Position numbers and translations under genes: made by a program
Shown: positions 8,389-60,002 of the stretch, in pieces
Position numbering within the stretch: the first letter of the stretch is position 1
Layout: each line of letters begins with the position of its first letter
Assembly (NCBI RefSeq): GCF_001429025.1
Contig: NZ_LMHT01000029.1
Coordinates: 1 to 64,000 of the forward strand
Length of the DNA: 64,000 bases
Reading direction: 5' to 3'
Origin: Phenylobacterium sp. Root700
GTDB lineage: Bacteria > Pseudomonadota > Alphaproteobacteria > Caulobacterales > Caulobacteraceae
Notes under the pieces: model-generated
Seen by the model: only the letters and a program-made list of their open reading frames with translations
Database searches by the model: none
What the model was told of the DNA's origin: nothing

Positions 8389-8419
8389 TTGACATACGGC
8401 ACAATATGTATCGTATATT
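8389..8419 (+). promoter_or_regulatory. Promoter with shared operator, copy 1
   Basis: TTGACA (8389-8394) and TATATT (8414-8419) are separated by 19 bases. Nearly all of the spacer is a palindrome-like element TACGGCAC-aatat-GTATCGTA (8395-8415). It matches the better palindromes at 19173-19213 and 21435-21455. It lies 55 bases upstream of the carboxylesterase start. I infer an operator bound by the local TetR regulator; the two arm mismatches here may make it a weaker site. Confidence 0.75.
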
Positions 8420-8469
8420 GCCGATAATGGATCGGGGCATCGATCCGACACATAGGGCGGGAGGCGACC

Positions 8470-10026
8470 ATGAGACGGTTTGCTGACATGCGACATGGGT
8501 TGGCTGGCGGTGCGCTCCTCTTGGCGCTCGCCGCGGTTCCCATCGCGTGCGAGGCGGCGACGAGCAGAGGCCTGGATGAGGGCCTGACGAAAGTGGATGG
8601 CGGGACGCTCAGGGGGCGTCTGGCGAAAGAGGTCTGGAGCTTCAAGGGCGTGCCCTACGCCCAGCCCCCGGTCGGCGCGCTGCGCTGGCGGGCGCCGCAG
8701 CCGCCGAAGGCGTGGACCGGTGTGCGCGAGGCGGCGACCCCCGGCCCGATCTGCATGCAGAAGATCGTTCCAGACAACGGGGTGGGACCTGGCCTGGCGA
8801 GCGAGGACTGCCTGACCCTCAACGTCTTCGCCCCGGCCGGCGCGGCGGGCCGTAGATTGCCGGTAATGGTCTGGATTCACGGCGGCGGGTTCGTCAACGG
8901 CTCGAGCGGCGCGGCGCTCTATGACGGGACACAGCTGGCCCGGCAGGGCGTGGTGGTGGTCACCCTGAACTACCGCTTGGGACGCTTCGGCTTCTTTGCT
9001 CATCCGGCCCTGACCGCCGAGACCCCTGAGGGGCCGCTGGCCAATTACGGCCTGCTCGACCAGGCCGCGGCGCTGACCTGGGTCCAGCGTAACATCGCTC
9101 AGTTCGGAGGCGACCCGCGCAACGTGACCCTGTTCGGGGAATCGGCGGGCGGCATGTCGGTCAATCGGTTGATGGCCATGGAGGCGGCACGGGGGCTGTT
9201 CCACAAGGCGATCATCGCCTCGGGCCTTGGGCGAGAGCAGGGCCAGAGCCTCAAAACCGCCGAGGCCAGCGGCGAGGCCTTCGCCGCGCGGCGCGGCCTG
9301 AAAGCCGTCAGCGCCGCGCAACTGCGGGCGGTTCCAGCCGCCGATATCCTGGTGGCCGGCGATCTCAACCTCTTCGCCGGCGAGGCCCCGATCCTCGACG
9401 GCAAGGTCGCGAGGCAAGGTCCGGTCGCCGCCTTCGCCGAGGGCGCCGTCGCGCCGATCCCAATGATCATCGGCTCGAACGACCTGGAGCTTCCGGCGGC
9501 CAGCGCCGGGCTCCTGCTGGAGAAGCTGATCGGGGTCCCGGAGGCGCGCAAGGCCGCCGCGATCGCCGGTTACGGCTCGCCCGCCGCATACGCCGAGCAC
9601 ATCGCCACGGACCTGGTTTTCGCCGAACCGGCCAGGACCCTGGCCAAGGCTCATGCTGGGCGGGGGGCGCCGACCTACCTCTATCGCTTCTCGGTGGTGT
9701 CGGCGAAGGCGCCGGCCGGGATGAGCGGGGCGGTCCACGGCGCGGACCGGCAATATGTCTTCCAGACCCTGGCCGCGTCGCCCTGGCCGACCGACGAGCG
9801 TGACGCGGCGCTGGCGAAAACCATCAGCGCCTACTGGGTTTCCTTCGCCAAGACCGGAGACCCGAATGGGCCCGGCCGACCCAGGTGGCCGCGATACGGC
9901 GACGGCGATCAACTGATCGACTTCACCAATGCGGGGCCAAGGGCGATGGCGACTCCCAACGCCGCGCCCCTGGACGCCCTCGCGGCGTCCTACCCCGCGA
10001 CACCGACCTCCGAACTGGGGCGCTAA
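8470..10026 (+). CDS. Type-B carboxylesterase, exported
   Basis: Serine hydrolase of 518 residues in the carboxylesterase/acetylcholinesterase-like alpha/beta-hydrolase family. An N-terminal signal peptide ends near CEAA. Motifs visible are the opening GVPYAQPPVGALRW, SEDCLTLNVFAP, the oxyanion segment WIHGGGF, and the nucleophile elbow GESAGG with Ser225; the catalytic His is probably in AVHGADRQY. It hydrolyses esters or lactones in the periplasm; the substrate cannot be told from sequence. It lies 58 bp upstream of a TBDR gene, so the two probably form an import-and-cleave operon from the operator-bearing promoter at 8389. Confidence 0.9.
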   Translation: MRRFADMRHGLAGGALLLALAAVPIACEAATSRGLDEGLTKVDGGTLRGRLAKEVWSFKGVPYAQPPVGALRWRAPQPPKAWTGVREAATPGPICMQKIVPDNGVGPGLASEDCLTLNVFAPAGAAGRRLPVMVWIHGGGFVNGSSGAALYDGTQLARQGVVVVTLNYRLGRFGFFAHPALTAETPEGPLANYGLLDQAAALTWVQRNIAQFGGDPRNVTLFGESAGGMSVNRLMAMEAARGLFHKAIIASGLGREQGQSLKTAEASGEAFAARRGLKAVSAAQLRAVPAADILVAGDLNLFAGEAPILDGKVARQGPVAAFAEGAVAPIPMIIGSNDLELPAASAGLLLEKLIGVPEARKAAAIAGYGSPAAYAEHIATDLVFAEPARTLAKAHAGRGAPTYLYRFSVVSAKAPAGMSGAVHGADRQYVFQTLAASPWPTDERDAALAKTISAYWVSFAKTGDPNGPGRPRWPRYGDGDQLIDFTNAGPRAMATPNAAPLDALAASYPATPTSELGR

Positions 10027-10084
10027 AGCCCCTTCCCGGGGGCGCCACGCCGCCGGGTCACCTAAAATACCTGGAGCCACCATC

Positions 10085-12355
10085 ATGACCTTCCCATGCG
10101 GGAGCGGCGCGCAGCGTCGCGCCTTGATGATCCTCGCCCTGGCGTCGAGCGCCCTGACGAGCCTTCCCCTGGCCGCCGCGGCGGCGACCCCCACCGACGA
10201 AAGTCTGCAGATCAGCGAGGTGGTGGTGACCGCGACCCGCCGCGAGGCGCGGTTGCAGGACGTGCCCTTGGCGGTGACCGCGGTCTCCGGCGAGGAGCTT
10301 CGCAGGTCCAATTACACCGCGCTGGCCGACGTCCAGTATCTGGCGCCGGGCGTGACCTTCTCCAGCGAGCCGGCGGCCAACGCCGGCGGGTTCCAGATCC
10401 GCGGGGTCGGGACGCAGGCCTATAACTACGGCACCGAGCAGACGGTCGGCATGGTCGTGGACGACGTGGTCATCGGCATGCCGCGCGACCCCGGCGTGGC
10501 GGGGTTTGGCGATATCGAGCGCATCGAGGTCCTGCGCGGGCCCCAGGGCACGCTGTTTGGCAAGAACTCCTCCGCCGGCGTGGTCGCCATTACGACCGTG
10601 AGCCCGAAGCTGGGCCAGTTCGGCGCCAACGCCCACCTGGCCTATGGCAGCCGCGAAGAGGTGGTGACCCAGGCGGCGGTCAATCTGCCGTTGACCGAAA
10701 CCCTGGCCGCCCGGATCTCGGCCTTCTACCAGAAGCAAGACGGCGCCATTCCGAACCTGCTGAACGACTGGCGCGCGGGTGATCGGAACGGGCGCGGCGT
10801 CTACGCCAAGCTGCTCTGGGAGCCGAACGACCGCTTCTCGTTCCAGGTCGCCGCCCAGCAGCAACGATTGTTCTCCCGCGATCCGGTCCTGGTGCAGAGC
10901 CTGGGCTTCAACCCGCTGTTCGCCGCGGCCTTCACGGGGCTTCCCACGCCGGCCCCAGACCGGCTGGTGAGCTACCAGAACGACCCCTATTACGCCCTGA
11001 CCAGGGTGAGCGGGCTGTCGGGCAAGGCGACCTACAAGCTCGGCGACTACAGCCTGACCTCGGTCACCGCCTATCGCCGGATGCGGCTCCAGCAACGGGG
11101 CGACGTCGACGCCGCGCCGGTCAACATCATGGACTACTTCCTGACGTCCAACTGGGATGAGCAGTTCACCCAGGAGTTCCGGCTGACCTCGCCGGCCGGT
11201 GAGCGATTGGAGTACGTGGCCGGCGCCTACTATTACGACGTCGACGTGCGGGCCGATGAGACCGCCATCGGCTACTTCTTCCAGCCCGTGCGGGTGTCGC
11301 TGACCGGCGGCGGCACGAACCATTACAAGGTCCGCACCCGCAGCACGGCCCTGTTCGGACAGGGCACCTATCGCCTGACCGACGACCTGCGGCTGATCGG
11401 CGGCCTGCGCTACACCCACGACCAGATCTCGGCGAATGTGGACATCACGCCGATCCCGGGGATCATACCGCTCAACATCACCGTGCCGGCGACCGGCAAG
11501 GTCGAGCACGACAACATCTCCGGCCGCGTCGGTTTCCAATACGATTTCGCGCCCGACGTGATGGCCTATGCGAGCTACGCGACGGGCTACAAGGGACCCT
11601 CGGTCAATGTGATCCAGGGGCAGGCCCGGTCGCTGAAACCGGAGACTTCGGAGAGCTATGAGCTGGGGCTGAAGTCGAGCCTGCTGGACCGGCGGGTGAT
11701 CCTGAACACCGCGCTCTACTGGTCGACCTACAAGGACTTCCAGGCCCAGACCTACGACACCACCCTGACCTTCCCGACGCTGATCCTGGCCAACGCTGGG
11801 GAGCTGCGGAGCCGGGGGGTGGAGGTCGAGCTGACCGGCAAGGTCACCTCGAACCTGACGGTGTCGGCGAACGGCGCCTTCAGCGAGGCGACCTATCGGG
11901 ACTTCACCTCCACCTGCTATCCGGGCGAGCCGATCTCCGCGCAGGTCGGGGTCGGCTGCTACGTCGATCCGCGAACCGGCGCCCAGGTCGCCAACATGGC
12001 CGGGCGACGCCTACCCAATTCCCCCAAGTGGACCTATTCGATCGGGGCGAACTATTCGCGCCCGGTCGGCAACGGGCTCGAGTTCGACCTGAACGCCAAC
12101 TGGGGCTGGCGCGGCGCGGTCTTCAATCGCGCCGGTGATCCGACGACCAAGACGCCTGACTATGGGCTGCTGGGCATGTCGGCGGGGATCGGCGACGAGG
12201 ACGGCCGCTGGCGGGTGGGCGTCTATGGACGCAACCTGCTGGACACGCTGTTCGTCTCGCCGGTGCACTCGGTCGCCGATCCCGGCGGCTTCAACCGCTT
12301 CATCAGCAACGAGGCCTTCCGCACGGTCGGGGTGTCCCTGGACGTCCGATACTGA
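10085..12355 (+). CDS. TonB-dependent outer membrane receptor (1)
   Basis: Outer-membrane active transporter of 756 residues. A signal peptide ends near AAAAAT; then comes a TonB-box-like ISEVVVTATRRE and a plug domain (DVPLAVTAVSGEEL through IERIEVLRGPQGTLFGKNSSAGVV). The rest is the 22-strand barrel, ending in an aromatic-rich terminal strand (TVGVSLDVRY). It belongs to the broad alphaproteobacterial TBDR group that often imports plant- or aromatic-derived compounds rather than iron. Its pairing with the upstream esterase suggests an ester-containing ligand. Confidence 0.93.
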   Translation: MTFPCGSGAQRRALMILALASSALTSLPLAAAAATPTDESLQISEVVVTATRREARLQDVPLAVTAVSGEELRRSNYTALADVQYLAPGVTFSSEPAANAGGFQIRGVGTQAYNYGTEQTVGMVVDDVVIGMPRDPGVAGFGDIERIEVLRGPQGTLFGKNSSAGVVAITTVSPKLGQFGANAHLAYGSREEVVTQAAVNLPLTETLAARISAFYQKQDGAIPNLLNDWRAGDRNGRGVYAKLLWEPNDRFSFQVAAQQQRLFSRDPVLVQSLGFNPLFAAAFTGLPTPAPDRLVSYQNDPYYALTRVSGLSGKATYKLGDYSLTSVTAYRRMRLQQRGDVDAAPVNIMDYFLTSNWDEQFTQEFRLTSPAGERLEYVAGAYYYDVDVRADETAIGYFFQPVRVSLTGGGTNHYKVRTRSTALFGQGTYRLTDDLRLIGGLRYTHDQISANVDITPIPGIIPLNITVPATGKVEHDNISGRVGFQYDFAPDVMAYASYATGYKGPSVNVIQGQARSLKPETSESYELGLKSSLLDRRVILNTALYWSTYKDFQAQTYDTTLTFPTLILANAGELRSRGVEVELTGKVTSNLTVSANGAFSEATYRDFTSTCYPGEPISAQVGVGCYVDPRTGAQVANMAGRRLPNSPKWTYSIGANYSRPVGNGLEFDLNANWGWRGAVFNRAGDPTTKTPDYGLLGMSAGIGDEDGRWRVGVYGRNLLDTLFVSPVHSVADPGGFNRFISNEAFRTVGVSLDVRY

Positions 12356-12363
12356 TCGTGCGG

Positions 12364-12407
12364 GCGCGGCGCATCGTGCCGATCTTCCCAGGCACGATGC
12401 GTCGCGC
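12364..12407. terminator. Long intergenic hairpin
   Basis: A 17-bp stem with one G-T pair (arms 12364-12380 and 12391-12407) and a 10-base loop lies just after the TBDR stop codon and before the hexosaminidase gene. There is no T tract, so it may attenuate transcription or protect the upstream transcript from decay rather than fully terminate it. Confidence 0.5.
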
Positions 12408-12448
12408 GAACCCTCATACCCCGTAGAGCCATGTCGGAGCTGACAGCC

Positions 12449-14626
12449 ATGCGCCGCTTTCCCGCCACCACGTCCTGCGCGGCGCTGGCCCTTGGCCTTG
12501 GGCTGTTGGTTTGGGGGCCGCCTGCGGCGGCGGCCCCCGCCGTGCTGCCCCAGCCGCTCAGCATCCAGGAGCAGACCGGCGCGGCGATCCCGGCGGCGGC
12601 GTTCCAGGTCGAGTGGAGCGGCCATCGCGACCCGGCTCTGGAGCGGGCCGCGCAACGGTTTGGCGCCTATGTCGCGCTGCGAACCGGGATCGACGCGCGC
12701 CTCGTCAAGCCGACGAGGCTGAGGATCATATGCGCGGGTCCCGATCCGGACGCCCTGACGCTCAAGGCCAAGGAGGCCTATCGCCTGACCGTCGAGGCGG
12801 AGGGGGTGACGCTCACCGCCGAGGGGCCGATCGGCGTGCTGCGCGGTCTGGCCACCCTAAGGCAGGCGATCACGTCCGGGCCGGAGGGTTTCGTGGTCCC
12901 GCGAATGCAGGTCGACGACCGTCCCCGCTTCGCCTGGCGCGGAGTGATGATCGACGTGGCCCGCCACTTCATGACGCTGGAGACCCTGAAGCGCCAGATC
13001 GACGCCATGGAGCAGGTGAAGTTGAACGTCCTGCACCTGCATCTCAGCGACAATGAGGGGTTCCGGGTCGAGAGCCGCCGCTATCCCAAGCTTCAGGCGC
13101 TGGCCTCCGGCGGCGAGTACTACACCCAGGCCCAGGTTCGCGAGCTGGTGGTCTACGCCGCCGAGCGCGGGGTGCGGATCGTGCCCGAGTTCGACGTGCC
13201 GGGGCACTCCCGCGCCCTGCTCGCCGCCTATCCCGAACTGGCCTCCCGCAAGGGCGAGGCGGACGGCGCCTTCGCCGCGCTGAACTCGGCCCTCGATCCA
13301 TCCTTGCCGGAAACCTACGCCTTCCTGGGCGGCCTGTTCTCGGAGATGGCCGAGCTCTTTCCCGACCGGTATTTCCATGTCGGCGGCGACGAGGTGGCCG
13401 GCGGAGACTGGGCGTCCAGTCCGCGCGTCCAGGACTTCATGCGCCGCAACGGCTTGACCTCGAAGGTCGAGCTGGAGGCCTATTTCCATCGCCAGGTCCG
13501 CGACATCGCTGCCGCGCGCGGCAAGACCATGATCGGCTGGGAGGAGATCGCCCATGCGCCGATCGCCGACGACGTGCTGGTCCAGGCTTGGCGCGGGTCG
13601 GCGGCGATCGCGCGCGGCACGGGGCAGGGCAACCGCGTGATCGTCTCGGCCGGCTACTATCTGGACCTGCTGGAGACCGGCGAGAGCCACTATCAGATCG
13701 ATCCGCTGGACGCGGCCGCCTACGGCATGGACGCCGAGGAGGCGGCCCGCGCGCGGGCGCATCCGGTGCTGAAATCGCTGCTGCACGAGGACGTGCTGAA
13801 GGTTCCGGGGCTACAGCTGACGGCGGCCCAGCAGGCCCTGGTGCTCGGCGGCGAGGCCGCGCTGTGGAGCGAACTGGTCACCGACGAAATGCTGGATGGA
13901 CGGCTCTGGCCGCGCGCGGCGGTGATCGCCGAGCGGCTTTGGTCGCCGGCCGAGGTCCGCGACACCGACGACCTGTACCGCAGATTGCTGCGGGTGCAGG
14001 ACGGGCTGCGCATGGCGGGGCTGAAGGATGAAGCCAACCGCGACCGGATGATCGCCAGACTGTCGCCCGGCGAGAGCGAGCCGGTGGCGCTTCTGGTGTC
14101 GCTGGTCTCACCGGTCCGCAATTTCGCGCACAAGGCCTCGGTGCAAGCCATCTTTCATGGCCGGCCGGGTGGCCGCCAGGACTTCAACCAACTGGCCGAT
14201 ATCGCCTCGCCAGACAGCCTGGTCGCGCGCCGCTTCGGCCTCGATGTCCGAGCCTTGATCGGCGGCGAGCGCGCCGGCGCCCCGGCCCTGAAGGCCGAGC
14301 TACGGATGTGGCGCGACAATCATGTGCGGTTCCTGAAGGTGGCCGAGGGCCGGCCGATGCTCCAGGCCGCCGCGCCGGTTTCGGCGGACATCGCGGCCCT
14401 GGCCGAGCTCGGGCTGGAGGCGGTCGGTTTCATCGAGGCTGGTCGTCGTCCGAAGGCGGAATGGCGCGCACGGGCGGCTGTAATGCTGGAGAAACAGGCG
14501 GCGGCGGAGCGGGCCTCCTCGACCTTCATGCAGACGGTCGCCTCGCCGAACCAGCCGCCGGCCGATCTGCTGATCGCTATCGCCCGGCCGATCGGCGTGT
14601 TGGTCGCCGCCGCCGAAGGGCGCTAG
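12449..14626 (+). CDS. GH20 beta-N-acetylhexosaminidase
   Basis: Exported glycoside hydrolase of about 725 residues. A signal peptide (GLGLLVWGPPAAAA) is followed by the GH20 N-terminal domain (about residues 30-150) and the TIM barrel. Catalytic signature FHVGGDEVAGGDW (near residue 315) supplies the Asp-Glu pair; RGVMIDVARHFM and LNVLHLHLSDNEGFR are further GH20 hallmarks. It removes terminal GlcNAc or GalNAc residues by substrate-assisted catalysis. The C-terminal 150 residues form a helical extension. ATG 12449 has GGAG upstream; ATG 12431 is an alternative. Its stop codon overlaps the stop of the convergent TetR gene by 3 bases. Confidence 0.92.
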   Translation: MRRFPATTSCAALALGLGLLVWGPPAAAAPAVLPQPLSIQEQTGAAIPAAAFQVEWSGHRDPALERAAQRFGAYVALRTGIDARLVKPTRLRIICAGPDPDALTLKAKEAYRLTVEAEGVTLTAEGPIGVLRGLATLRQAITSGPEGFVVPRMQVDDRPRFAWRGVMIDVARHFMTLETLKRQIDAMEQVKLNVLHLHLSDNEGFRVESRRYPKLQALASGGEYYTQAQVRELVVYAAERGVRIVPEFDVPGHSRALLAAYPELASRKGEADGAFAALNSALDPSLPETYAFLGGLFSEMAELFPDRYFHVGGDEVAGGDWASSPRVQDFMRRNGLTSKVELEAYFHRQVRDIAAARGKTMIGWEEIAHAPIADDVLVQAWRGSAAIARGTGQGNRVIVSAGYYLDLLETGESHYQIDPLDAAAYGMDAEEAARARAHPVLKSLLHEDVLKVPGLQLTAAQQALVLGGEAALWSELVTDEMLDGRLWPRAAVIAERLWSPAEVRDTDDLYRRLLRVQDGLRMAGLKDEANRDRMIARLSPGESEPVALLVSLVSPVRNFAHKASVQAIFHGRPGGRQDFNQLADIASPDSLVARRFGLDVRALIGGERAGAPALKAELRMWRDNHVRFLKVAEGRPMLQAAAPVSADIAALAELGLEAVGFIEAGRRPKAEWRARAAVMLEKQAAAERASSTFMQTVASPNQPPADLLIAIARPIGVLVAAAEGR

Positions 14627-15231
14627 GCGATCAGGCGGTCGATGACGGCGCGCAGCATCTTGTGGTCGAGCCGCGCGTGGCTGACGACGGCGCTCCAGAC
14701 CATGCCGCTGACGATCTCGAGCACGATGTCGACGCCCAGGCCGAAGGTGACGCCGGGCGTTGGGGGCATGGCCTCGAGGTAGCGGCGGACTTCGGCGCGG
14801 CGCACCCGCACCTGGCTCTGGACGGTGTCGGCGACCCGCGGATTGGCGCGCATCTCCCCGACCGCGAACCCGATCGACGGGGCGATGAGCGGGTCGGCGT
14901 ACACTTCCTCGATGGCCAGGGTGTACTGCACCAGATAGTCGGCCGGATGGTCGGCCCCGCGCACGGTCACGTCATGGAAGGCGTTGGTGATCGCCTCGGC
15001 GACCGCGTCGGACGGGTCAGGCCAGCGACGATAGAAGGTGGTGCGCGAGACGCCCGCCCGCGTGCAGATCTCGTTGACGGTCAGGCCCGAGAAGCCGCGC
15101 TCGGCCAGGACCTCCAGGGTCGCGCGCAGCATCCGGGCGTTGGTTTCCGGCGAGCGTGGCCGGCCCATCACCGCCGGCGCCTTGGCGGGCGGCTCGGCGA
15201 GGGGGCTCTGCTGGATCTTGGCCGGAGCCAT
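14623..15231 (-). CDS. TetR family transcriptional regulator (1)
   Basis: One-component repressor of about 202 residues. The N-terminal HTH domain is clear (LRATLEVLAERGFSGLTVNEICTRAGVSRTTFYRRWPD); the C-terminal ligand domain is unassigned. It is the last gene of the leftward run FAH-ADH-VOC-MFS-TetR, with a 74-bp gap after the MFS gene. Three copies of a palindrome of the size typical for TetR operators sit in promoters of this locus, including the one driving this run. I infer that it represses those promoters and itself, and is released by a pathway metabolite. Confidence 0.88.
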   Translation of the reverse strand: MAPAKIQQSPLAEPPAKAPAVMGRPRSPETNARMLRATLEVLAERGFSGLTVNEICTRAGVSRTTFYRRWPDPSDAVAEAITNAFHDVTVRGADHPADYLVQYTLAIEEVYADPLIAPSIGFAVGEMRANPRVADTVQSQVRVRRAEVRRYLEAMPPTPGVTFGLGVDIVLEIVSGMVWSAVVSHARLDHKMLRAVIDRLIA

Positions 15232-15305
15232 CAGGTCATTTCCTGCACTACGTTCGCAGGCCACATATGCCTTGAGTTCGCGGCGACGGCCAGCCGCAAG
15301 GGGCG

Positions 15306-16721
15306 TTACCGGACGTCTCGCCCGGAGTTGAACGGCAGGAAGGCCATGCCCACGGACCCTGCAATCAGCAGGCCGAGCAACACGACAAAGCCGGCCTGCT
15401 GCGCCCCGAAGGCGGCGGTGGCGGCGCCGACCAGGGCCGAGCCCAGCCAGACCGTCGCCGTGCCCGAGAGCGCGTAGAGTCCGAACCAGCCGCCGATATC
15501 CTCAGGTGTGCTCAGCTTCGTGAGCATCGAGCGGCTGGAGGCGTAGGACCCGCAGATGCCGAGTGCGTTCAGGCAGGCGATGGCGACAAAGGCGATCTCA
15601 GGAGCTGAGCGGAATACCGGGCCGTTCCAGACCGGCTCGGGCGACCAGGGCGCGTAGAGCAGGCGGCCTGGCGCCAGGCCAAGCAGCAGGATCTGGCCGA
15701 CGATGACGATGGCCAGTTCGATCTGGATGGCGCGCTTGGGGCCGAACGCGCGGTCGAGACGGGCGCCCAGCAGGCCGCCGAATGAGAGGAAGACGCTGAC
15801 GATCACGCCGAGCGACAGCAGCTCCAAGGCGCTCCAGCCCATGACGCCGGCCGCGTAGACGCCGGTGAACAGCAAGATCGCCGTCATGCCGTCGGTGTAG
15901 AGCATGCGCGAGCCCAGGAAGATCGCCATCGGCCTGTTGGTCGTAAGCGCCTTGAGCATCCGCCAGACCCCGGCGAAGGCGTCGCGGACGCCGCCGCCGC
16001 CCAGCCCGCGAGGCGCGTCTTTCCCCACGAGAAACAGCGGCAGCGCGCCGAGCGCGAAGACCACGGCCACGATGGGCGCGGTGATGCGGTCGGTCTCATG
16101 CGCCGCCGCCGACAGGCCAAGCAGCGGCTCGGCGGGGAAGCCTGGAAGCGCCATCTTGGCGGGTAGGGCGAAGCCCCAGAGGACGGCGGCCAGGAGCACG
16201 ACCGAGAGGGCGCTGCCCAACGCCAGGCCAAGGCCCGACGCCGCCGAGGTCTGGGCCGCGGGCGCCGCGTAAGGCAGCATCGAGTTGTGCAGCACCTCGG
16301 TGTAGGCGAACAGCAGGCCGGCGGCGAACACCACCGCGCAGGTCGCGCTCAGCGGCAGGCCGCTTCCATCGGGCTTGGCCCACCATAGCGAGGCGATCAG
16401 CGCGACCAGCAGCGCCGTGACCACGGCCAGGGCCGGCTTGCGCGGCCCGATCCTGTCCAGGGCGGCCCCCAGCAGCGGGCTGGTGAAGGCCGAGAGCAGC
16501 CCGTAGGCCATGACCAGCTGCGCCACCAGGGTCTGGCCGCGCACCGGATCCCCGACCAGCACGGTCGCGAGGTAGGGGATGAATATGTAGACCTTGATCA
16601 GGATCACATAGGGCGTACGGGCGCCCTCATAGACCGCCCAGGCCAGGCCCGAGGCGGGAAGGCGCGCCGATCGCTCGGCGCCCTTGGCGGGGGTGGTCGT
16701 CGATATCGCCGAACCGCTCAT
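15306..16721 (-). CDS. MFS transporter, UMF1/Atg22-like
   Basis: Inner-membrane transporter of 471 residues with about 12 hydrophobic segments. The opening SGLAWAVYEGARTPYVILIKVYIF and the central loop resemble the UMF1 (unknown major facilitator) branch. It likely imports or exports an intermediate of the locus. It is in the same direction as the upstream VOC gene, with a 30-bp gap, and precedes the TetR gene, so it is probably in the same operon. Confidence 0.85.
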   Translation of the reverse strand: MSGSAISTTTPAKGAERSARLPASGLAWAVYEGARTPYVILIKVYIFIPYLATVLVGDPVRGQTLVAQLVMAYGLLSAFTSPLLGAALDRIGPRKPALAVVTALLVALIASLWWAKPDGSGLPLSATCAVVFAAGLLFAYTEVLHNSMLPYAAPAAQTSAASGLGLALGSALSVVLLAAVLWGFALPAKMALPGFPAEPLLGLSAAAHETDRITAPIVAVVFALGALPLFLVGKDAPRGLGGGGVRDAFAGVWRMLKALTTNRPMAIFLGSRMLYTDGMTAILLFTGVYAAGVMGWSALELLSLGVIVSVFLSFGGLLGARLDRAFGPKRAIQIELAIVIVGQILLLGLAPGRLLYAPWSPEPVWNGPVFRSAPEIAFVAIACLNALGICGSYASSRSMLTKLSTPEDIGGWFGLYALSGTATVWLGSALVGAATAAFGAQQAGFVVLLGLLIAGSVGMAFLPFNSGRDVR

Positions 16722-16751
16722 GCGCGCCTCCCGGTGTTGATCTTGCGCCGG

Positions 16752-17234
16752 CTAGAAAGCCGGACCGCCGGCCGCGATCAGGCGTTGGTTTTCCTCCAGC
16801 ACCTCGGCGGCGGACGCGGTCAGGTCGATCGGCTTGCCGAACGGCTGGGGCACGTCGAGACCCGTGCGCCAGTAGATCTCGGACTTGTTGCCCTCGGGGT
16901 CGGCGAAATAGACGCCGATCGCATTGCCGTGGGTGATGACCATGTGGATCGGCGCCTGCGCGGCGAGCAGGGCTTGATAGAGGGTCTGAAGCGCCTCCAG
17001 GCTGTCGACGCGCCAGGAGACCTGGTTGATCAGCTTGGTGTCGAGCGGGGCCGTCCGGCCCTTGGCCAGCACCAGTTCGTGGTGCTCGACATCGGGCCGT
17101 GAGGACAGGAACACCGCGCCCAGTTGCGGCGCCTCGTCGGTCACTTTCAGTCCAAGGACCCGCGTGTAGAAATCGACCATCTTGTCGAGGTCGTTCACCT
17201 GGAAGCCCATATGGCCCAGTTCGGCGATCGCCAT
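16752..17234 (-). CDS. VOC family (glyoxalase/extradiol dioxygenase-like) protein
   Basis: Compact two-module VOC-fold protein of 160 residues. Candidate metal ligands are His8 (ELGHMGFQV), Glu53 or His51-52 (HHELVLAK) and Glu119 (NKSEIYW). The position that is His in extradiol dioxygenases and in GloA (LxHVAFxV) reads INQVSWRV, so Gln71 replaces it. Database naming would often be catechol 2,3-dioxygenase-like, but this substitution makes true ring cleavage uncertain. A well-placed GAGGA precedes ATG 17234. It lies 11 bp downstream of the dehydrogenase gene in the operon. Confidence 0.85.
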   Translation of the reverse strand: MAIAELGHMGFQVNDLDKMVDFYTRVLGLKVTDEAPQLGAVFLSSRPDVEHHELVLAKGRTAPLDTKLINQVSWRVDSLEALQTLYQALLAAQAPIHMVITHGNAIGVYFADPEGNKSEIYWRTGLDVPQPFGKPIDLTASAAEVLEENQRLIAAGGPAF

Positions 17235-17245
17235 GTCGGTTGTCC

Positions 17246-18286
17246 TCAGTTGACGGGAGCAGGGAGGTTCGGCGCGAGCAGCACCTTCAGGTGCGAGCCG
17301 GCCGGATCGAGCAGGGCGTCGAACATCTCGTTCGCCCGTTCCAACGGGACGACGGCGGTGACGAAGTCCTCGGCGCGGACGCGGCCGGCGGCGAGGTGGC
17401 TGATCGCCTCCTCCATGTCGCGGTGGTTGCAGCTGGCCGAGCCGACCAGCTCCAACTCCTTCTGCACGACCAGGTACTGCGAGACCTGGACCGGCGCTTT
17501 GGGCACGCCCTGCAGCACGATGCGCGCGCCGTAGGCGGCCAGCTCGACGGCCTTGCCGGGCGCGCTGAGGTGGCTGGTGCATTCGAAGATGAACTCGGGG
17601 CTGCGGCCGCCGAGGGCGGCGGGCACACTCTCCTCGCAGCCGGCCAGATCGACGGCGACGAAGCCGGCGGGGGCCATCAGCGCGCGGCGGGCGGCGTTGG
17701 GGTCGACCAGCACGATGTCGTCCACGCCGCGCGCGCGCAGGGCGGCGGCGGTCAGGGAGCCGATCGGTCCGGCCCCCAGGATCGCCACTGGATCGCCGGG
17801 CCTCACATTGGAGCGGTTGACCCCATGAATGGCGATGGCCAACGGCTCGGCGATGGCGGCCTGGTCGAAGGACAGGTGGTCGGGGATGTGGTGCAGCAAT
17901 TCGGGCGAGACCACGATGTGGCTGGCGTAGCCGCCCTGGACCACGCCGTGGCCCAAGGCCCGGTCGAGGTGATGGATGCAGAGGAAGCCGCGGCCGGCGC
18001 GGCAGGTCTGGCAGGCGCCGCAGGGCGAGCCCATCGAGAGCGCGACCCGGTCGCCGGGCGACCAGTTCTGGACGGCTGCACCGACCTCGTCGATTTCACC
18101 AACCACCTCGTGGCCCAGCACGCAGCCGACATGCCAGCGGGGCAGACTGCTGCTGCGCGCCGCCAGGTCGGTGCCGCAGATGCCGCAGCGTGCGACCCGC
18201 ACCTTGACGGCGCCCGGGCCGACTTCCGGTTCGGGAACCTCCGTCACCACCATCTTGCGGGCGTCCGAAATCATGATCGCTTTCAT
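17246..18286 (-). CDS. Zinc-dependent alcohol dehydrogenase
   Basis: Medium-chain dehydrogenase of 346 residues. Catalytic zinc ligands appear in CGICGTDLAAR and GHEVVGEID; structural zinc is held by four cysteines in SPCGACQTCRAGRGFLC. The Rossmann motif GAGPIGSL with an acidic residue after the second strand (LVDPN) suggests NAD use. It resembles threonine/sorbitol dehydrogenase-like enzymes, so a polyol or hydroxy acid substrate is likely. Its ATG overlaps the FAH-gene stop by 4 bases, showing translational coupling. Confidence 0.92.
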   Translation of the reverse strand: MKAIMISDARKMVVTEVPEPEVGPGAVKVRVARCGICGTDLAARSSSLPRWHVGCVLGHEVVGEIDEVGAAVQNWSPGDRVALSMGSPCGACQTCRAGRGFLCIHHLDRALGHGVVQGGYASHIVVSPELLHHIPDHLSFDQAAIAEPLAIAIHGVNRSNVRPGDPVAILGAGPIGSLTAAALRARGVDDIVLVDPNAARRALMAPAGFVAVDLAGCEESVPAALGGRSPEFIFECTSHLSAPGKAVELAAYGARIVLQGVPKAPVQVSQYLVVQKELELVGSASCNHRDMEEAISHLAAGRVRAEDFVTAVVPLERANEMFDALLDPAGSHLKVLLAPNLPAPVN

Positions 18287-19149
18287 GCGCCCACTCCGTC
18301 TTGGCCGGCGGGGGCGATCATGGGGTTACGCAGCTCGCCGATCCCTTCGATCCAGGTGGTCAGCAGGTCGCCGGCCGCCAGGAAGCGGGGCGGTTTGCGC
18401 GTGGCGCCGACGCCCTCGGGCGTGCCGGTGAAGATCAGGTCGCCGGGGTAGAGCGTGCAGAGGCCCGAGATGTACTCGACCAACTCACCGACCGAGAAAA
18501 TGAAGTCGCTGGTGCGCGAGGACTGCATGACCTCGCCGTTCACCGCGCAGCCCAGGGCCAGGTCGTCGGGATTAGGGAACTCGTCGATGCTGACGATGGT
18601 CGGGCCGATGGGACCAAAGCCGGCCAGGGACTTGGCCATGCTGAACTGCGGCATCGGACCCAGGCGCTGGATGGCGCGTTCGGAGATGTCCTGACCGGCG
18701 GTGAGGCCCGCGACATAGGACCAGGCGTCGGCGCGGCTGACATTGCGCGCTTCGCGGCCCATGACCACGACCAGTTCGGCCTCCCAGTCGACCTTGGCCG
18801 ACACCACCGTCACGGGGGCGTTCGGGCCGGTCAGGCAGCTGGGGAACTTGGTGAAGACCACGGGCTGTTCGGGCGGCGCGACGCCGGCTTCGGCGGCGTG
18901 GGCGCGGTAGTTGGCGCCGATGGCGAAGACCTGGCGCGGGCGCGGCACGGGAAGCTCCAGCCTGGCCGGATCGATTGGAGCGAAGGCGAGGGACGGCGCC
19001 GAAGCCATCCAGGCCGTCAGTTCGTTCCAGCGCTCGAAGACCTGTTGGGGGTCGGAGGGCAAGGCCCCGCCGGAAGCCTCGGCGAGATCGACGCCCTGGT
19101 CTTCGCCTGCGAGCAGATATGCCCGTCCGTTGATGGCGCCTATGCGCAT
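18283..19149 (-). CDS. Fumarylacetoacetate hydrolase family protein
   Basis: Cytosolic enzyme of 288 residues with the FAH C-terminal fold: AIGANYRAHAAEAGV, the metal-binding segment DWEAELVVVMG, YVAGLTAGQDISER and LIFTGTPEGVG. The family hydrolyses C-C bonds of 1,3-diketo acids or decarboxylates related compounds, in aromatic meta-cleavage and in deoxy-sugar-acid pathways. It is the first gene of the leftward operon, starting 24 bases beyond the perfect palindromic operator; GGGAGGA precedes the ATG. The next dehydrogenase gene overlaps by 4 bases. Confidence 0.92.
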   Translation of the reverse strand: MRIGAINGRAYLLAGEDQGVDLAEASGGALPSDPQQVFERWNELTAWMASAPSLAFAPIDPARLELPVPRPRQVFAIGANYRAHAAEAGVAPPEQPVVFTKFPSCLTGPNAPVTVVSAKVDWEAELVVVMGREARNVSRADAWSYVAGLTAGQDISERAIQRLGPMPQFSMAKSLAGFGPIGPTIVSIDEFPNPDDLALGCAVNGEVMQSSRTSDFIFSVGELVEYISGLCTLYPGDLIFTGTPEGVGATRKPPRFLAAGDLLTTWIEGIGELRNPMIAPAGQDGVGA

Positions 19150-19172
19150 GGCCTGGTCCTCCCTGAACCGAT

Positions 19173-19213
19173 CCTTCTTACTTACGGTACAATATGTACC
19201 GTAAGTAAGAAGG
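19173..19213. promoter_or_regulatory. Perfect 18+5+18 palindrome, operator copy 2
   Basis: The arms CCTTCTTACTTACGGTAC and their exact complement flank a 5-base AATAT centre. The inner core TACGGTAC-N5-GTACCGTA matches copies at 8395 and 21435. It lies between the stop of SDR 1 and the start of the FAH gene, so it controls the leftward FAH operon. Leftward, CTTACT and TAAGTA occupy the -35 and -10 places with a 19-base spacer. It could also form a hairpin in RNA, but the shared core argues for a protein-binding site. Confidence 0.85.
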
Positions 19214-19226
19214 GCTGTCCAGCGCC

Positions 19227-20015
19227 TCACCAGGGCATGGTGGCGCCGCCGTTCACGCGCAGGACCTGGCCGGTGATGAAGGCCGCGGCGTCGGAGGCGA
19301 GGTAGAGGAACTGATGGGCGACATCCTCCGGCGTCCCCACCCGACCCAGCGGCGCGCGCGCCGCCCAACGGTCGACGAAGGCGCTGCGGGCGTGGGGCTC
19401 CACGGGGGCTGGCCCCATCGACAGGGTGGTCGGGATGAAGCCGGGCGCCACGGCGTTCACGCGCACGCCGTCAGGGCCCGCCTCGTTGGCGAGCACCTTG
19501 GTCAGCATGACGACCGCGGCCTTGGAGACCGAGTAGCTGGCGTTGGTGGGGATCGACAGGTCGATGGCCGACGAGGCCATGTTGATGATTGAGCCGCGCT
19601 TGGCGGCCAGCATCATCGGCAGCGCCGCCTGGCAGCCGTAGAGCGTGCCCTTGAAGTTCGCCGCGAAGACCGCGTCGAACGCGGCCTCGTCCATCTCCTC
19701 GATGCGGTGGCCGCTGCTGGCCACGCCGGCGATGTTGCACTGGATGTCCAGGCGTCCGGCGGCGCCTGCAAATGCACGCACGGCGTCGACGACTGCGGCG
19801 CAGTCGGTGACATTCAGCGAGGCGGAGTCGGCATGGCCGCCGCTGGCGCTGATCGCGGCCGCCGTCTGCGCGGCCGCCGCTGCGTCGAGATCGCTGCAGA
19901 GCACTCGCGCGCCCGCAGCAGCAAGCGACTGGGCGACGGCGCGGCCTAGGCCGGCGCCCGCGCCGGTGACGAAGGCGGCCTTGCCGACCAGGGAGAGGCG
20001 AGATGAGTAGGTCAC
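19227..20015 (-). CDS. Short-chain dehydrogenase/reductase (SDR) 1
   Basis: Classical SDR of 262 residues. Cofactor motif TGAGAGLG (from about residue 17) with Asp after the second strand (CSDLD) suggests NAD preference; CNIAG and the catalytic SYSVSK (Tyr-x-x-x-Lys) are intact. The ending NGGATMPW is close to that of the next SDR, showing paralogy. Start is a GTG at 20015 with AAAGGAA upstream. It lies 62 bp downstream of SDR 2 in the same direction and probably acts with it on a hydroxyl or keto group of the imported compound. Confidence 0.92.
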   Translation of the reverse strand: MTYSSRLSLVGKAAFVTGAGAGLGRAVAQSLAAAGARVLCSDLDAAAAAQTAAAISASGGHADSASLNVTDCAAVVDAVRAFAGAAGRLDIQCNIAGVASSGHRIEEMDEAAFDAVFAANFKGTLYGCQAALPMMLAAKRGSIINMASSAIDLSIPTNASYSVSKAAVVMLTKVLANEAGPDGVRVNAVAPGFIPTTLSMGPAPVEPHARSAFVDRWAARAPLGRVGTPEDVAHQFLYLASDAAAFITGQVLRVNGGATMPW

Positions 20016-20077
20016 GGGAATTCCTTTGAACGCGGCGCGATCTTGAGGAGCAGCGGCGAGATGCGTCTGGGGCGACG

Positions 20078-20872
20078 TCACCACGGCATCGACATTCCGC
20101 CATTGGCGCGGAGCGTCTGGCCGGTGATGAAGCTGGAGGCGTCGGAGGCGAGGTAGAGCACCTGGGCGGCGACATCCTCGACCGCGCAGAGCTCGCCGAG
20201 CGGCGACTTCGCCCGCCACCAGTCCAGGTATCGCTCGCGCGCCTGCGCGTCGCGATAGCGGGTGAGCGAGAGTTCGCTGGGGATGAAGCTGGGCGCCACG
20301 GCGTTGGCGCGGACCCCGCAGTCGGCGACCTCGGAGGCGAGGATCTTGGTCAGCATCGAGATCGACGCCTTGGCGACCGCGTAGCTGGCGATGGTGGCCG
20401 GGGCGATGTCGATGGCCTCGGACGACATGTTGATGATCGCGCCCTGGCCGGCCGGGCGCATGACCTTCATCGCGGCCTGGCAGCCGTAGAGCACGCCCTT
20501 GAAATGGACGGCGAACATCTCGTCGAAGCCCTGTTCCTCGAGGTCGACCACCTTCTGCGAACGCCCGGCGATGCCGGCGATGTTGCACATGATGTGGAGG
20601 CCGTCCGAGGCGGCTGCGCGGGCGACGGCGGCGAAGACGGCGTCCTTGTCCGACACGTTCAGGGCGACCGGAATTCCGCCGACCAGGGCGGCCGTTTCGG
20701 TCGCGGCCTCAGCGCGCAGGTCGGCGCAGTGGACGCTCGCTCCGGCCTCGGCCAGGGCCACGCAGATCGCCTGGCCTATGGCGCCCCCCGCGCCGGTGAC
20801 GAAGGCTACCTTGCCGTCGAGTTTCCAGTCGCCATGAAGTATTGATTGTGCGTAATCTGGTGATTCGCTCAT
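20078..20872 (-). CDS. Short-chain dehydrogenase/reductase (SDR) 2
   Basis: Classical SDR of 264 residues, paralogous to the downstream SDR. Motifs are TGAGGAIGQAI with CADLR (NAD-type acidic residue), CNIAG, the catalytic SYAVAK, and the family C-terminus ASSFITGQTLRANGG. It starts a two-SDR leftward transcript. Its promoter region (20873-20941) is shared divergently with the lipocalin-like gene and lacks the TACGGTAC operator, so it may be regulated differently. Confidence 0.92.
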   Translation of the reverse strand: MSESPDYAQSILHGDWKLDGKVAFVTGAGGAIGQAICVALAEAGASVHCADLRAEAATETAALVGGIPVALNVSDKDAVFAAVARAAASDGLHIMCNIAGIAGRSQKVVDLEEQGFDEMFAVHFKGVLYGCQAAMKVMRPAGQGAIINMSSEAIDIAPATIASYAVAKASISMLTKILASEVADCGVRANAVAPSFIPSELSLTRYRDAQARERYLDWWRAKSPLGELCAVEDVAAQVLYLASDASSFITGQTLRANGGMSMPW

Positions 20873-20941
20873 GATTCAACAATCTCTATTGAAGTATAAT
20901 TGGCGATATGCTGATCATTGTCGAGAATTGGAGATCGACTG
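20873..20941. promoter_or_regulatory. Divergent promoter region
   Basis: A 69-base AT-richer gap between the divergent SDR 2 and lipocalin-like genes. A perfect TATAAT lies at 20895-20900 for the rightward gene, and an overlapping TATACT on the other strand (20893-20898) could serve SDR 2. No convincing -35 is visible for either. The TTCAA-N9-TTGAA dyad at 20876-20894 is short and may be chance. Confidence 0.35.
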
Positions 20942-21376
20942 ATGAGCATTGATAAATTCGTGGGAACTTGGGAATTGTTGTCCTATGAGGGCCGAGCGCC
21001 TGACGGCTCGGTGACGCATCCCCTTGGCGAGCATCCGTTCGGTGTTGGGATCTACACAGCCGCCGGCCAGATGTCGGCGCACCTGATGCGGGCGGAGCGC
21101 ACGCCGTTCGGGGGTGGGCGGCGGCCCGGCGTCGACGTCATCGCGCCTGACCTGATCGTCGCCGCGGCGGCCGGCTACATCGGCTATTGCGGCCGCTACT
21201 CGGTGGATGCCGATCGTCGGGTGGTCTCGCACTTTGTCGAAAGCGCCCTCATTCCCGACTGGGTCGGGACCGTCATGCCCCGCGAATACGCGTTCTCCGG
21301 CGACCAGCTGATCCTGCGTCCGCCGCCCCGGGGCGGCCTCGTCACCGAACTGCGCTGGCGGCGGCGAACCGCCTGA
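20942..21376 (+). CDS. Lipocalin-like domain protein
   Basis: Small protein of 144 residues opening with FVGTWELLSYEGRAPDG, the typical start of the bacterial lipocalin-like (Lipocalin_5) family, a beta-barrel that binds small hydrophobic ligands. No signal peptide, so it is probably cytosolic. GGAG lies 9 bases upstream of the ATG. Its place among catabolic genes suggests ligand binding, or an as yet undefined enzymatic role, toward the locus substrate. Confidence 0.85.
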   Translation: MSIDKFVGTWELLSYEGRAPDGSVTHPLGEHPFGVGIYTAAGQMSAHLMRAERTPFGGGRRPGVDVIAPDLIVAAAAGYIGYCGRYSVDADRRVVSHFVESALIPDWVGTVMPREYAFSGDQLILRPPPRGGLVTELRWRRRTA

Positions 21377-21428
21377 CCGGCGGTGTGGTGATTGTCGTCC
21401 GTCCATCAGGGCCTCCCGCAATACTCGC

Positions 21429-21459
21429 TTGACTTACGGTACATGTTGTACCGTATCTA
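21429..21459 (+). promoter_or_regulatory. Promoter with shared operator, copy 3
   Basis: TTGACT (21429-21434) and TATCTA (21454-21459) with a 19-base spacer enclose the perfect palindrome TACGGTAC-atgtt-GTACCGTA (21435-21455). It lies 70 bases upstream of the TBDR 2 start. Architecture is identical to the carboxylesterase promoter at 8389, supporting coregulation. Confidence 0.82.
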
Positions 21460-21524: not shown

Positions 21525-23954
21525 ATGTCGACAACCATCCATTCGTCGCGCCGTCGTTCACGCAGGCTTGGCGTGCTCCTGCTGGCCGGCGCCAGCCTGA
21601 CCACGACCAGCGCCGCCCTGGCCCAAGGGACGGATGGCGCGATCGAGGAGATCGTCGTCACCGCCCAGAAGCGCGAGCAGAACCTGCAGGACGTGCCGAT
21701 CGTGGTGACGGTCGCCAGCGCGCAGCTGCTGCAGGACACCGGGGTTCGCGACATCAAGGACCTGACGGTGCTGACGCCCGGCCTGATGGTCGTTTCGACC
21801 GCCAATGAAACGCAGTCGACCGCGCTGATCCGCGGCGTCGGCACCGCCGGCGGCAATATCGGCCTGGAGTCCTCAGTCGGCACCGTGATCGACGGCGTCT
21901 ATCGGCCGCGCGTGGGCGTGGCGCTCAGCGACCTTGGCGATATGGAGCGGATCGAGGTGCTGAAGGGGCCGCAGGGCACGCTGTTCGGCAAGAACACCTC
22001 GGCCGGCGTCATCAATGTCGTCACCGCCCGGCCGTCGTTCGATCCCGGCGCCAAGGCCGAGCTCACCATCGGCAACTATGGCGAGGTCGGCGGCTCGCTC
22101 AGCATCGAGGGACCGATCATCGCCGACAAGGTGGCCGGCAGCCTGGTGGTGGTCAGCCGCAAGCGCGACGGGTTCTACGACGTGGCGCCTGGAAAGGGAC
22201 CGCGCACCCAGGACGACGACTCCAACCGCAACTTCTACTCCCTACGCGGGCAGTTGGTGTTCGAGCCGGGGAACGGCTTCGACGCGCGGCTGATCGGCGA
22301 CTTTACGCGTCGGGACGAAAGCTGCTGCGTCGGGGTGCAGCGGGTGAACGGGGCCACGGCGCCGATCGTCCAGGCGCTGGCCGGCGCCGGCGGCGGGGTG
22401 CTGTCGCCGCCCGATCCCTATCGTCGCCTGGCCTTCGCCAACCGCGACACCACCCAGAAGATCCGCGACGGCGGCGTCTCCCTGGAGATGAACCAGGACC
22501 TGGACGCCCTGGGCGGCGCCCAGCTGACCTCGATCACCGCCTATCGCGATTGGCGTTGGATCACCGGGTCGGACTCCGACTACACGAACGCCGACATCAT
22601 CTATCGGGGCGACAACGGCGACACCCAGAACCGCTTCCGGCAGTTCAGCCAGGAGCTGCGGATCGGCGGCAGCGCCGGCATCGTCGACTATACGGTGGGC
22701 GCCTTCTACGCCCACGAGAAGCTGGATTCCCGCGTCGCCCAACTCTATGGCGCGGACTTCCCGCAGTTCCTGGCCCTGCTGTTTTCCGGCGGGACCAACC
22801 CGAACTTCTTGGCGCCGATCCTCTCGCTGGCCACGGCCGGGACCGGGTCGCGGGACGTCTACGCCCAGAAGGACGACACCTTCGCGCTGTTCACCAACAA
22901 CAGCGTGCGCTTCACCGACGCCCTCGAGCTGACGGTCGGCCTTCGCTACACCACCGACCGCAAGAGCGCGGTCTCGTCCTTCAACGCCACCGACGGCGGC
23001 CGGCTCTGCAATGCGGGCCAGGGCACGGGCTCGGCGGCGATCATCGGGGCGCTTTGCAACCCGTTCTTCAACAGCAACTTCATCGGCGTGGTCAGCCGTC
23101 AGAAACGCTCGGAAGAGGCGCTGAGCGGGACGGCGAAGCTGTCCTATCGCTTCAGCCCTGAGCTGCTCGGCTACGCGTCCTATTCGCGGGGTTACAAGTC
23201 CGGCGGGTTCAATCTGGACCGGGTCGCCTATCCCTATGTCGCGCCCTCGCAGCCGAACGCGGCGCTGTCGCTGAAGCCGGTGCTGGACACCAGCTTCCCG
23301 GGCGAGTTCGTCGATTCCTACGAGGTCGGCGCCAAGTCGACCCTGCTCGACCGGCGGCTCTATCTGAACGCCACGGCCTTCTATCAGAAGTTCACCGACT
23401 ACCAGCTCAACGCCTTCAACGGCTTCTTCTTCAACGTCTTCCCGGTGCCCGAGGTGACGTCCAAGGGTGTGGATGTCGACATGCTGTACCGGCCGAGCAA
23501 GCAGCTGACCGTGCAGGGCGGCCTGACCATCGCCGACACCCGCTATCCCAAGTCGACCGCTTCGCTGCTCGCCCTGACCCCGTCGACCGCCCGGCTGCCG
23601 GGCCAGCGCCTGAACCTGGCCCCGCTCTATTCGGGCTCGGCCTCGGTCACCTACGAGCATCCAGTCGCCGAGGGCCTGCTGGTCCGCGCCAACGCCAGCG
23701 TGAAGTACAATTCCGAGTACAACGCCGGCAGCGACCTCAGCCCGCTGAAGCGACAGGCCGCCCACGCTGTCGTGAACGCCAGGCTCAGCCTGGCCAGCGA
23801 GGACGCGCGCTGGGCGGTCGAGCTCTGGGCCGCCAACCTGACCGACACCCAGTACGTCCAGACCGCCTATGACGCGCCGTTCCAGGCCGGCAGCGTCGAC
23901 GCCTTCCTGGGCGCGCCGCGCACCTTCGGCGTGACCCTGCGCGCCAGCTACTGA
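21525..23954 (+). CDS. TonB-dependent outer membrane receptor (2)
   Basis: Receptor of 809 residues. A basic leader (SSRRRSRRLGVLLLAG) and signal peptide cleaved near ALAQ precede the TonB box EEIVVTAQKRE and the plug (QDVPIVVTVASAQLL, MERIEVLKGPQGTLFGKNTSAGVINV). The barrel ends in APRTFGVTLRASY. GGGGAGGA lies upstream of the ATG. The gene is driven by operator copy 3 and followed after 16 bp by a serine hydrolase gene, so uptake and hydrolysis appear coupled. Confidence 0.94.
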   Translation: MSTTIHSSRRRSRRLGVLLLAGASLTTTSAALAQGTDGAIEEIVVTAQKREQNLQDVPIVVTVASAQLLQDTGVRDIKDLTVLTPGLMVVSTANETQSTALIRGVGTAGGNIGLESSVGTVIDGVYRPRVGVALSDLGDMERIEVLKGPQGTLFGKNTSAGVINVVTARPSFDPGAKAELTIGNYGEVGGSLSIEGPIIADKVAGSLVVVSRKRDGFYDVAPGKGPRTQDDDSNRNFYSLRGQLVFEPGNGFDARLIGDFTRRDESCCVGVQRVNGATAPIVQALAGAGGGVLSPPDPYRRLAFANRDTTQKIRDGGVSLEMNQDLDALGGAQLTSITAYRDWRWITGSDSDYTNADIIYRGDNGDTQNRFRQFSQELRIGGSAGIVDYTVGAFYAHEKLDSRVAQLYGADFPQFLALLFSGGTNPNFLAPILSLATAGTGSRDVYAQKDDTFALFTNNSVRFTDALELTVGLRYTTDRKSAVSSFNATDGGRLCNAGQGTGSAAIIGALCNPFFNSNFIGVVSRQKRSEEALSGTAKLSYRFSPELLGYASYSRGYKSGGFNLDRVAYPYVAPSQPNAALSLKPVLDTSFPGEFVDSYEVGAKSTLLDRRLYLNATAFYQKFTDYQLNAFNGFFFNVFPVPEVTSKGVDVDMLYRPSKQLTVQGGLTIADTRYPKSTASLLALTPSTARLPGQRLNLAPLYSGSASVTYEHPVAEGLLVRANASVKYNSEYNAGSDLSPLKRQAAHAVVNARLSLASEDARWAVELWAANLTDTQYVQTAYDAPFQAGSVDAFLGAPRTFGVTLRASY

Positions 23955-23970
23955 TCGACAGGTGCGGGCG

Positions 23971-26024: not shown

Positions 26025-26115
26025 TCATCTGAAATAGCATTTGCAATCCAGATCGCAAGCCCATAGATGGGGGAGCGATCGAAATCCAGAAAGCATTTGT
26101 TATGAGAGTGAAGCG
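26025..26115. promoter_or_regulatory. Divergent TetR 2 control region
   Basis: The 91-base gap holds AAATAGCA (26032-26039) and two copies of AGCATTTG (26036-26043, 26092-26099). AAATAGCA is identical to the outer half-site of the perfect palindrome at 30748-30770. These are candidate binding sites for the TetR protein, which would link this operon and TBDR 3. The match is short, so this is tentative. Confidence 0.4.
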
Positions 26116-57547: not shown

Positions 57548-57550
57548 GCG

Positions 57551-57610
57551 GGTTCTCGGCGGGTTCTCAGCGGAGTTTCGAATAGGGGCGGAACTGTACT
57601 CGTTCGAAAC
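57551..57610. promoter_or_regulatory. Control region of double TetR / TBDR 4
   Basis: A spaced dyad GTTTCGAA-N20-TTCGAAAC (57575-57610) lies between the divergent regulator and receptor genes. Beside it are two direct repeats of CGGGTTCTC 11 bases apart (starting near 57549 and 57560). Both are candidate binding sites for the double TetR protein. Two different site types would suit a regulator with two different HTH domains. Confidence 0.5.
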
Positions 57611-57694
57611 CCACTTGACGACAGGGTAACGATTTGCGGAATGTGCGCACCTAATCGTAACTAAAAACCGACGCAGTTCGGGACGGGGAACGGA

Positions 57695-59956: not shown

Positions 59957-60002
59957 TGCGCCGCCCGATTGAACCTGTTGCTGGACAAGGAGCCGAGCGC
60001 CG

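Follow-up and report, generated by a model that had tools for sequence, protein, structure and literature searches.

Why do three copies of one palindrome stand within 13 kb ahead of three gene runs in Phenylobacterium sp. Root700, and which regulator would read them? The copies lie in a stretch of 64,000 nucleotides (contig NZ_LMHT01000029.1, positions 1 to 64,000), called the window throughout this text, and an earlier note made from its sequence had proposed that they are shared operators of a local regulon, with the TetR-family gene lying among them (14623-15231, minus strand; its product is called TetR1 here) as their candidate regulator. We found that the three copies are a discrete set at one locus. 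They very probably mark a local regulon of three promoters, and we put at roughly 0.7 the probability that one dedicated repressor, most probably TetR1, binds them as its operators, a reading that draws on sequence comparison.

A palindrome private to one locus

The pattern from which we started, TACGGTAC-N5-GTACCGTA, occurs without mismatch at 19183-19203 and 21435-21455 and with two mismatches at 8395-8415. The ninth bases pair too, so that the core was refined to TACGGTACA-N3-TGTACCGTA, a 21-bp element with 9-bp arms and a 3-bp centre. Copy 1 (8395-8415, plus strand) is imperfect and reads TACGGCACA-ATA-TGTATCGTA, with two mismatches to the perfect copies; copy 3 (21435-21455, plus strand) has a perfect core; and copy 2, to which no strand is assigned, has its core at 19183-19203 inside a longer perfect palindrome of 41 bp (19173-19213). 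The centre is ATA in copies 1 and 2 and TGT in copy 3. The span that the earlier note had given for copy 2 was right, but the 18-bp arms around five bases that it described are really 19-bp arms around a 3-nt centre. Its account of two perfect copies and one two-mismatch copy, with no other in the window, agrees with our scan at up to three mismatches, which returned three matches against a mean of 0.06 in 100 dinucleotide-shuffled windows, none of which reached three copies. Apart from a TTGAC hexamer the flanks of the three copies differ (judged by eye), so the copies are not a duplicated element.

The absence of further copies extends to the whole genome. In the assembly scanned (4,575,332 bases, 35 contigs, 99.94% complete), the same threshold gave three sites in total, all in these 13 kb, and the same letters read backwards gave 12 matches; the motif is private to the locus rather than scattered at unrelated genes, the outcome that had been named beforehand as speaking against the proposal. 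A looser pattern, TACGNNACN5GTNNCGTA, matched perfectly three times in the whole genome, at these three sites, then not at all with one mismatch and 22 times with two; its reversed control gave 73 matches in all. Fifty-nine relatives (208 Mb) held two single sites, both at two mismatches, which corresponds to an expectation of 0.044 in a genome of this size, and two single sites were found among 100 other genomes of the genus (a set that overlaps the 59 in part), where no genome had two. A control inside the window limits what recurrence can say: six of its 38 perfect inverted repeats with 8-bp arms recur within two mismatches at least as often as the shared palindrome (2 recurrences, and 7 for the top entry, GCGGCGCG), and the most-recurring ones are G+C-rich strings in a window of 66-69% GC. 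Since such repeats recur as often, the case rests on genome-wide privacy and not on recurrence within the window by itself. A regulon of one locus is well supported because the 4.58 Mb contain only three copies at up to three mismatches, which share 13 kb and each precede co-directional catabolic or uptake genes.

Promoter layout and the proposed switch

Copy 1 begins right after TTGACA (8389-8394) and copy 3 right after TTGACT (21429-21434), with the hexamer in the same register at both, and TATATT stands 19 bases past the hexamer at copy 1, a layout that looks like that expected of a promoter-blocking operator. Copy 2 lies within a 77-bp gap of a co-directional run, the palindrome 23 and its core 33 bases before the start codon of the gene for a fumarylacetoacetate-hydrolase-family enzyme (FAH). 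As had been described, each copy precedes a set of named genes: a carboxylesterase and a TonB receptor behind copy 1; FAH, an alcohol dehydrogenase (ADH), a VOC protein, an MFS transporter and TetR1, on the minus strand, behind copy 2; and a second TonB receptor and a hydrolase behind copy 3. Judging from their spacing, these runs would each be transcribed as a unit.

The switch that we propose would act by repression rather than by activation. A TetR1 dimer on the 21-bp core would block RNA polymerase, and at copies 1 and 3 the core, directly behind TTGACA or TTGACT, would fill the spacer and reach the -10 region. Release of TetR1 by a pathway substrate or intermediate would turn on, together, the two TonB receptors, the FAH-ADH-VOC-MFS run and two hydrolases of the esterase type. 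Since the FAH run ends with the TetR1 gene, TetR1 would also limit its own level, in line with the autoregulation suggested by the earlier note.

TetR1 as candidate regulator

TetR1 belongs to the TetR family. The protein of 202 residues matches PF00440 (TetR_N) at 44.2 bits against a cut-off of 24 (1.6e-11), and its predicted model has nine helices with a mean pLDDT of 86.8, residues 1-24 being below 50. A Foldseek search of this model against the PDB gave TetR-family regulators as best matches, 2fq4 and 2id3 (TM 0.61-0.64 for the first two entries), and the TetR1 profile matches 2fq4 by sequence as well; the fold search supported the TetR fold and named no operator like this one. The gene is co-directional with copy 2 and downstream of it.

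A comparable palindrome stands before a relative of TetR1 (39% over 132 residues) in Methylobacterium terricola (locus L039), where TACGCTTCA-TATA-TGTATCGTA lies 88 bases before an ATG start and has a right half identical to that of copy 1. When 915 kb of loci were scanned at up to three mismatches with gaps of 4-6, only L039 and one other locus, L020, matched, each where a TetR gene begins, in a count that leaves out the window and the loci fetched by motif and that favours such places, many loci having been fetched for their TetR gene. A scan upstream of TetR genes gave, in 70 rows, 3 at two mismatches (L039, L045 and L051), 3 at four and 64 at five or more; several genes are counted twice in these rows, one is TetR1 of the window itself, the L031 slice is wrong and L020 is not included. 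At L020 (1716-1737), in a genome of the same genus, AACGATACGATACCGTATCGTA separates a TetR gene from a divergent one that by eye resembles a VOC gene, and another palindrome, TACTGTACGGTACAGTA, perfect and identical at both places, precedes TetR genes at L045 (9961-9977) and L051 (9871-9887), from a Rhodospirillales metagenome-assembled genome and Thalassospira australica. The palindromes at these four loci are TAC-rich, like the one here, and stand at the start of a TetR gene; they differ in having a spacing of 1 or 6, and only the L039 protein is related to TetR1 beyond the DNA-binding domain.

Closer relatives are known as proteins. TetR1 orthologues of 49-93% identity exist (P0001-P0006), and one of them (P0002, 81%) is probably encoded on the same 20963-bp contig as an FAH orthologue (P0036, 81%), the longest contig having this length for both. 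In the 28 fetched loci, identity to TetR1 stays at or below 41% for matches longer than 100 residues and reaches 50% in short ones to the DNA-binding part. Among 249 genomes of the family, the own genome included, 17 match TetR1 at E <= 1e-18, those other than the own at 32-39% identity; among 101 genomes of the genus, again with the own, four match at E <= 1e-20, those besides the own at 32-34%; and among 398 genomes of the phylum only the own genome matches at E <= 1e-35. The relatives in the Caulobacter group are 34-41% identical, with recognition helices PRATFYRRW against SRTTFYRRW.

We dropped one argument, the nearness of TonB receptors to TetR1-like genes. Such a receptor was seen in all seven stretches considered (L106-L112; four within 600 bases, three at 1.4-2.0 kb), three of which (L109, L110 and L111) had been chosen after the receptor was already seen; loci such as L026-L028 (17-20 kb) showed no TonB receptor near the TetR1-like gene, and TonB receptors are common in these bacteria.

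Weighing the alternatives

Several observations weigh against control of the three promoters by TetR1. The sequence 19 bases past the hexamer at copy 3, TATCTA, is a poor -10 element, and a simple sigma-70 scan, restricted to spacers of 16-18, found no promoter at the three sites, the spacer here being 19. Copy 2 stands ahead of the run in which TetR1 is the fifth gene and not at the TetR1 gene itself. The pair of SDR genes upstream of copy 2 is left without an operator, the window scan having found no copy at the start of SDR1, at SDR2 or at the mid-cluster lipocalin gene. Within 300 bp upstream, TetR1 relatives from the Caulobacter group lack such a palindrome; their upstream regions contain other inverted repeats. 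Finally, the carboxylesterase was not traced to the 20963-bp contig of the TetR1 and FAH orthologues in the best 120 of its 2154 homologues, and for this reason we do not place it in a conserved cluster. This last point, with the two arm mismatches of copy 1, would suit a set of only two operators, the perfect ones, in which the copy at 8395 is weak or fortuitous and the carboxylesterase and TonB receptor 1 lie outside the regulon. Such a set would be compatible with our explanation of copies 2 and 3, and we consider it unlikely, since copy 1 keeps the TTGAC register and has the ATA centre of copy 2, since 0.04 sites per genome are expected at its mismatch level, and since the two promoters of CymR likewise hold one imperfect and one perfect repeat, according to the available part of the source (PMC1654148). 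The lack of the motif at the Caulobacter genes would fit better with a true regulon of another regulator, either a second TetR-family protein that the earlier note leaves unmentioned, TetR2 (25383-26024, minus strand), whose gene is only 180 bases behind those of TonB receptor 2 and its hydrolase, or one encoded elsewhere. We regard this as unlikely: TetR2 has an imperfect palindrome of its own and of another kind, TTGCAATCCAGATCGCAA (26041-26058; 7 of 9 pairs, by eye), between its gene and a divergent reductase gene, it gives no local alignment with TetR1 at E <= 100, and a motif confined to one locus would not usually be read by a protein encoded somewhere else in the genome. TetR2 and its palindrome are probably a separate neighbouring switch. 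The divergent run beyond that palindrome consists of a reductase, a hydrolase and an aldo-keto reductase.

The long palindrome at the FAH site calls for separate consideration. As RNA, 19140-19240 (101 nt) folds at -55.7 kcal/mol (z -8.6, with 0 of 200 shuffles as good), and the ten extra paired bases beyond the core, which are absent at the other two sites, would arise by chance with a probability of about 3e-6. Because they are improbable by chance and not needed for the shared core, these pairs ask for a second reason, and they may strengthen or double the operator, or form a hairpin insulating FAH from SDR read-through. It is nonetheless highly improbable that the element, for all its perfect 19-bp stem, works chiefly at the RNA level, through a hairpin between SDR2 and FAH that insulates or stabilises the mRNA, as its core recurs at two promoter sites lacking the extension and no T run follows the stem. 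An intrinsic terminator was rejected for the same lack of a T run, none being found at 19100-19280. A combined reading, in which the core is the TetR1 operator, the outer pairs form an mRNA hairpin and the whole set is a private regulon moved horizontally, seems to us quite unlikely; the hairpin would then keep transcription that reads through from the operator-free SDR genes out of the FAH run, so that the repressor gene closing that run would remain self-controlled, and the move would have brought operator, repressor and both outer-membrane receptors. As for chance or a dispersed repeat, single exact copies do arise by chance, for instance one inside a coding open reading frame (ORF) of a viral contig, and some G+C-rich repeats of the window recur as often, but with three copies never reached in the shuffled windows and none elsewhere in the genome at up to three mismatches, we find this origin scarcely credible.

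Genes behind the three sites and their relatives

On the plus strand, the first gene behind copy 1 encodes a type-B carboxylesterase (8470-10026; Pfam COesterase, 1.1e-111), followed by TonB-dependent receptor 1 (10085-12355; Pfam TonB_dep_Rec and Plug), whose ORF opens at 9929 within the esterase gene, the start at 10085 being a chosen reading with a checked start codon. Downstream lies a family-20 glycosyl hydrolase (12431-14626, plus strand), the place of which in the first transcript is uncertain because an inverted repeat with 17-nt arms (94%) stands at 12364-12407, between it and the receptor gene. The minus-strand order is SDR1 (20078-20872), SDR2 (19227-20015, upstream of copy 2 and pointing at it, with a candidate GTG start), copy 2, FAH (18283-19149; Pfam FAA_hydrolase, 8.5e-64; start codon checked), zinc ADH (17246-18286), a VOC/glyoxalase-dioxygenase fold protein (16752-17234, its start being the first candidate behind the ADH gene), an MFS/Atg22-like transporter (15306-16721) and TetR1; SDR1, the ADH and the transporter were named from the family scan. 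At 20840-20960, SDR1 and the lipocalin gene have in common an AT-rich divergent start region, without operator copy, in a cluster of about 69% GC. Copy 3 is followed on the plus strand by TonB-dependent receptor 2 (21525-23954, ATG at 21525) and a beta-lactamase-fold esterase/hydrolase (23962-25203; Pfam Beta-lactamase, 1.1e-62). This pair has a counterpart at 56312-61136, where a tandem TetR-like ORF, matching TetR_N twice, is divergent to a similar TonB receptor and beta-lactamase-fold hydrolase pair, the two hydrolases being 26% identical.

The carboxylesterase has one close homologue (94%), the rest being at 67% and below. FAH orthologues of 71-73% exist in Sphingopyxis, and among 385 genomes of the class and 397 genomes of the family of G340, a genome picked for a homogentisate dioxygenase that shares 69% identity with the Sphingomonas abaci enzyme (best of 30), only one genome besides the own had an FAH match (G1111, 53%). 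The neighbourhood of that gene (L105) contains FAH and a TonB receptor, and neither a TetR1 match nor the motif. In 149 genomes of the family, FAH matches besides the own are at 38-48%. Plasmids gave FAH and TetR1 matches that were all below 60% and no useful cluster, and viral contigs gave no FAH. More distant FAH relatives (52-55%) stand among ring-dioxygenase genes on a Sphingobium plasmid and beside a FAD monooxygenase on a Rhodococcus plasmid, neighbourhoods that hint at a possible aromatic substrate for the pathway.

Comparison with known systems

None of the literature that we found joins TetR, a palindrome, a TonB receptor, FAH and an operator, and a search for the operator half-sites with TetR gave nothing that looks related among the matches listed. 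Single traits of the locus are met elsewhere. PA3973 of Pseudomonas aeruginosa is TetR-like and binds palindromes at its own promoter, with TonB-receptor genes among its peaks, but it differs from the present case in its motif, SAAGRNMTGAACG, and in having many targets genome-wide rather than a local set (available text of PMC9736018). In Sphingobium, PheR represses phenanthrene catabolism and its deletion also raises TonB receptors, so that one repressor couples uptake and breakdown, as we propose here; PheR is, however, of the IclR family, and its motif is GCAACG (portion of PMC13273656 at hand). An IclR-family operator was considered for our locus and rejected, the palindrome being unlike, by eye, the IclR consensus GTNCG-N5-6-CGNAC quoted in the same portion (PMC13273656). 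No IclR Pfam match was obtained among 45 ORF queries, one of them a piece of another, which cover part of the ORFs listed for the window.

Likeness to PhlF of Pseudomonas is one of TetR-family logic, and genus and pathway differ; its operator, like the present one, contains GTACCGTATC, letters found in none of the papers searched or opened. PhlF is described as the TetR-family repressor of the diacetylphloroglucinol operon, its dimer sitting on the inverted repeat phO until released by a small molecule (accessible text of PMC8003664).

As a type of system the proposed switch is ordinary: such switches are well known, and this operator-regulator set is a new example of them. For this cluster of uptake and catabolic genes it offers an operator and a candidate regulator that can be tested together; the inducer, once found, would indicate the substrate that the two TonB receptors and the FAH-type pathway handle, and a sensor could be built with the private palindrome as one of its parts. 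The closest working model for it would be CymR, which is itself a member of the TetR family. As far as the available part of the source goes, CymR represses p-cymene and p-cumate catabolism, with perfect and imperfect inverted repeats at the cmt and cym promoters (PMC1654148), and the present set would likewise have one repressor for several catabolic operons with both kinds of repeat at their promoters. The mark of the CymR type, a palindrome shared by several catabolic promoters close together and confined to them, was found here. The present genes differ in including TonB receptors and esterases, and the set would belong with CymR only by the logic of its control.

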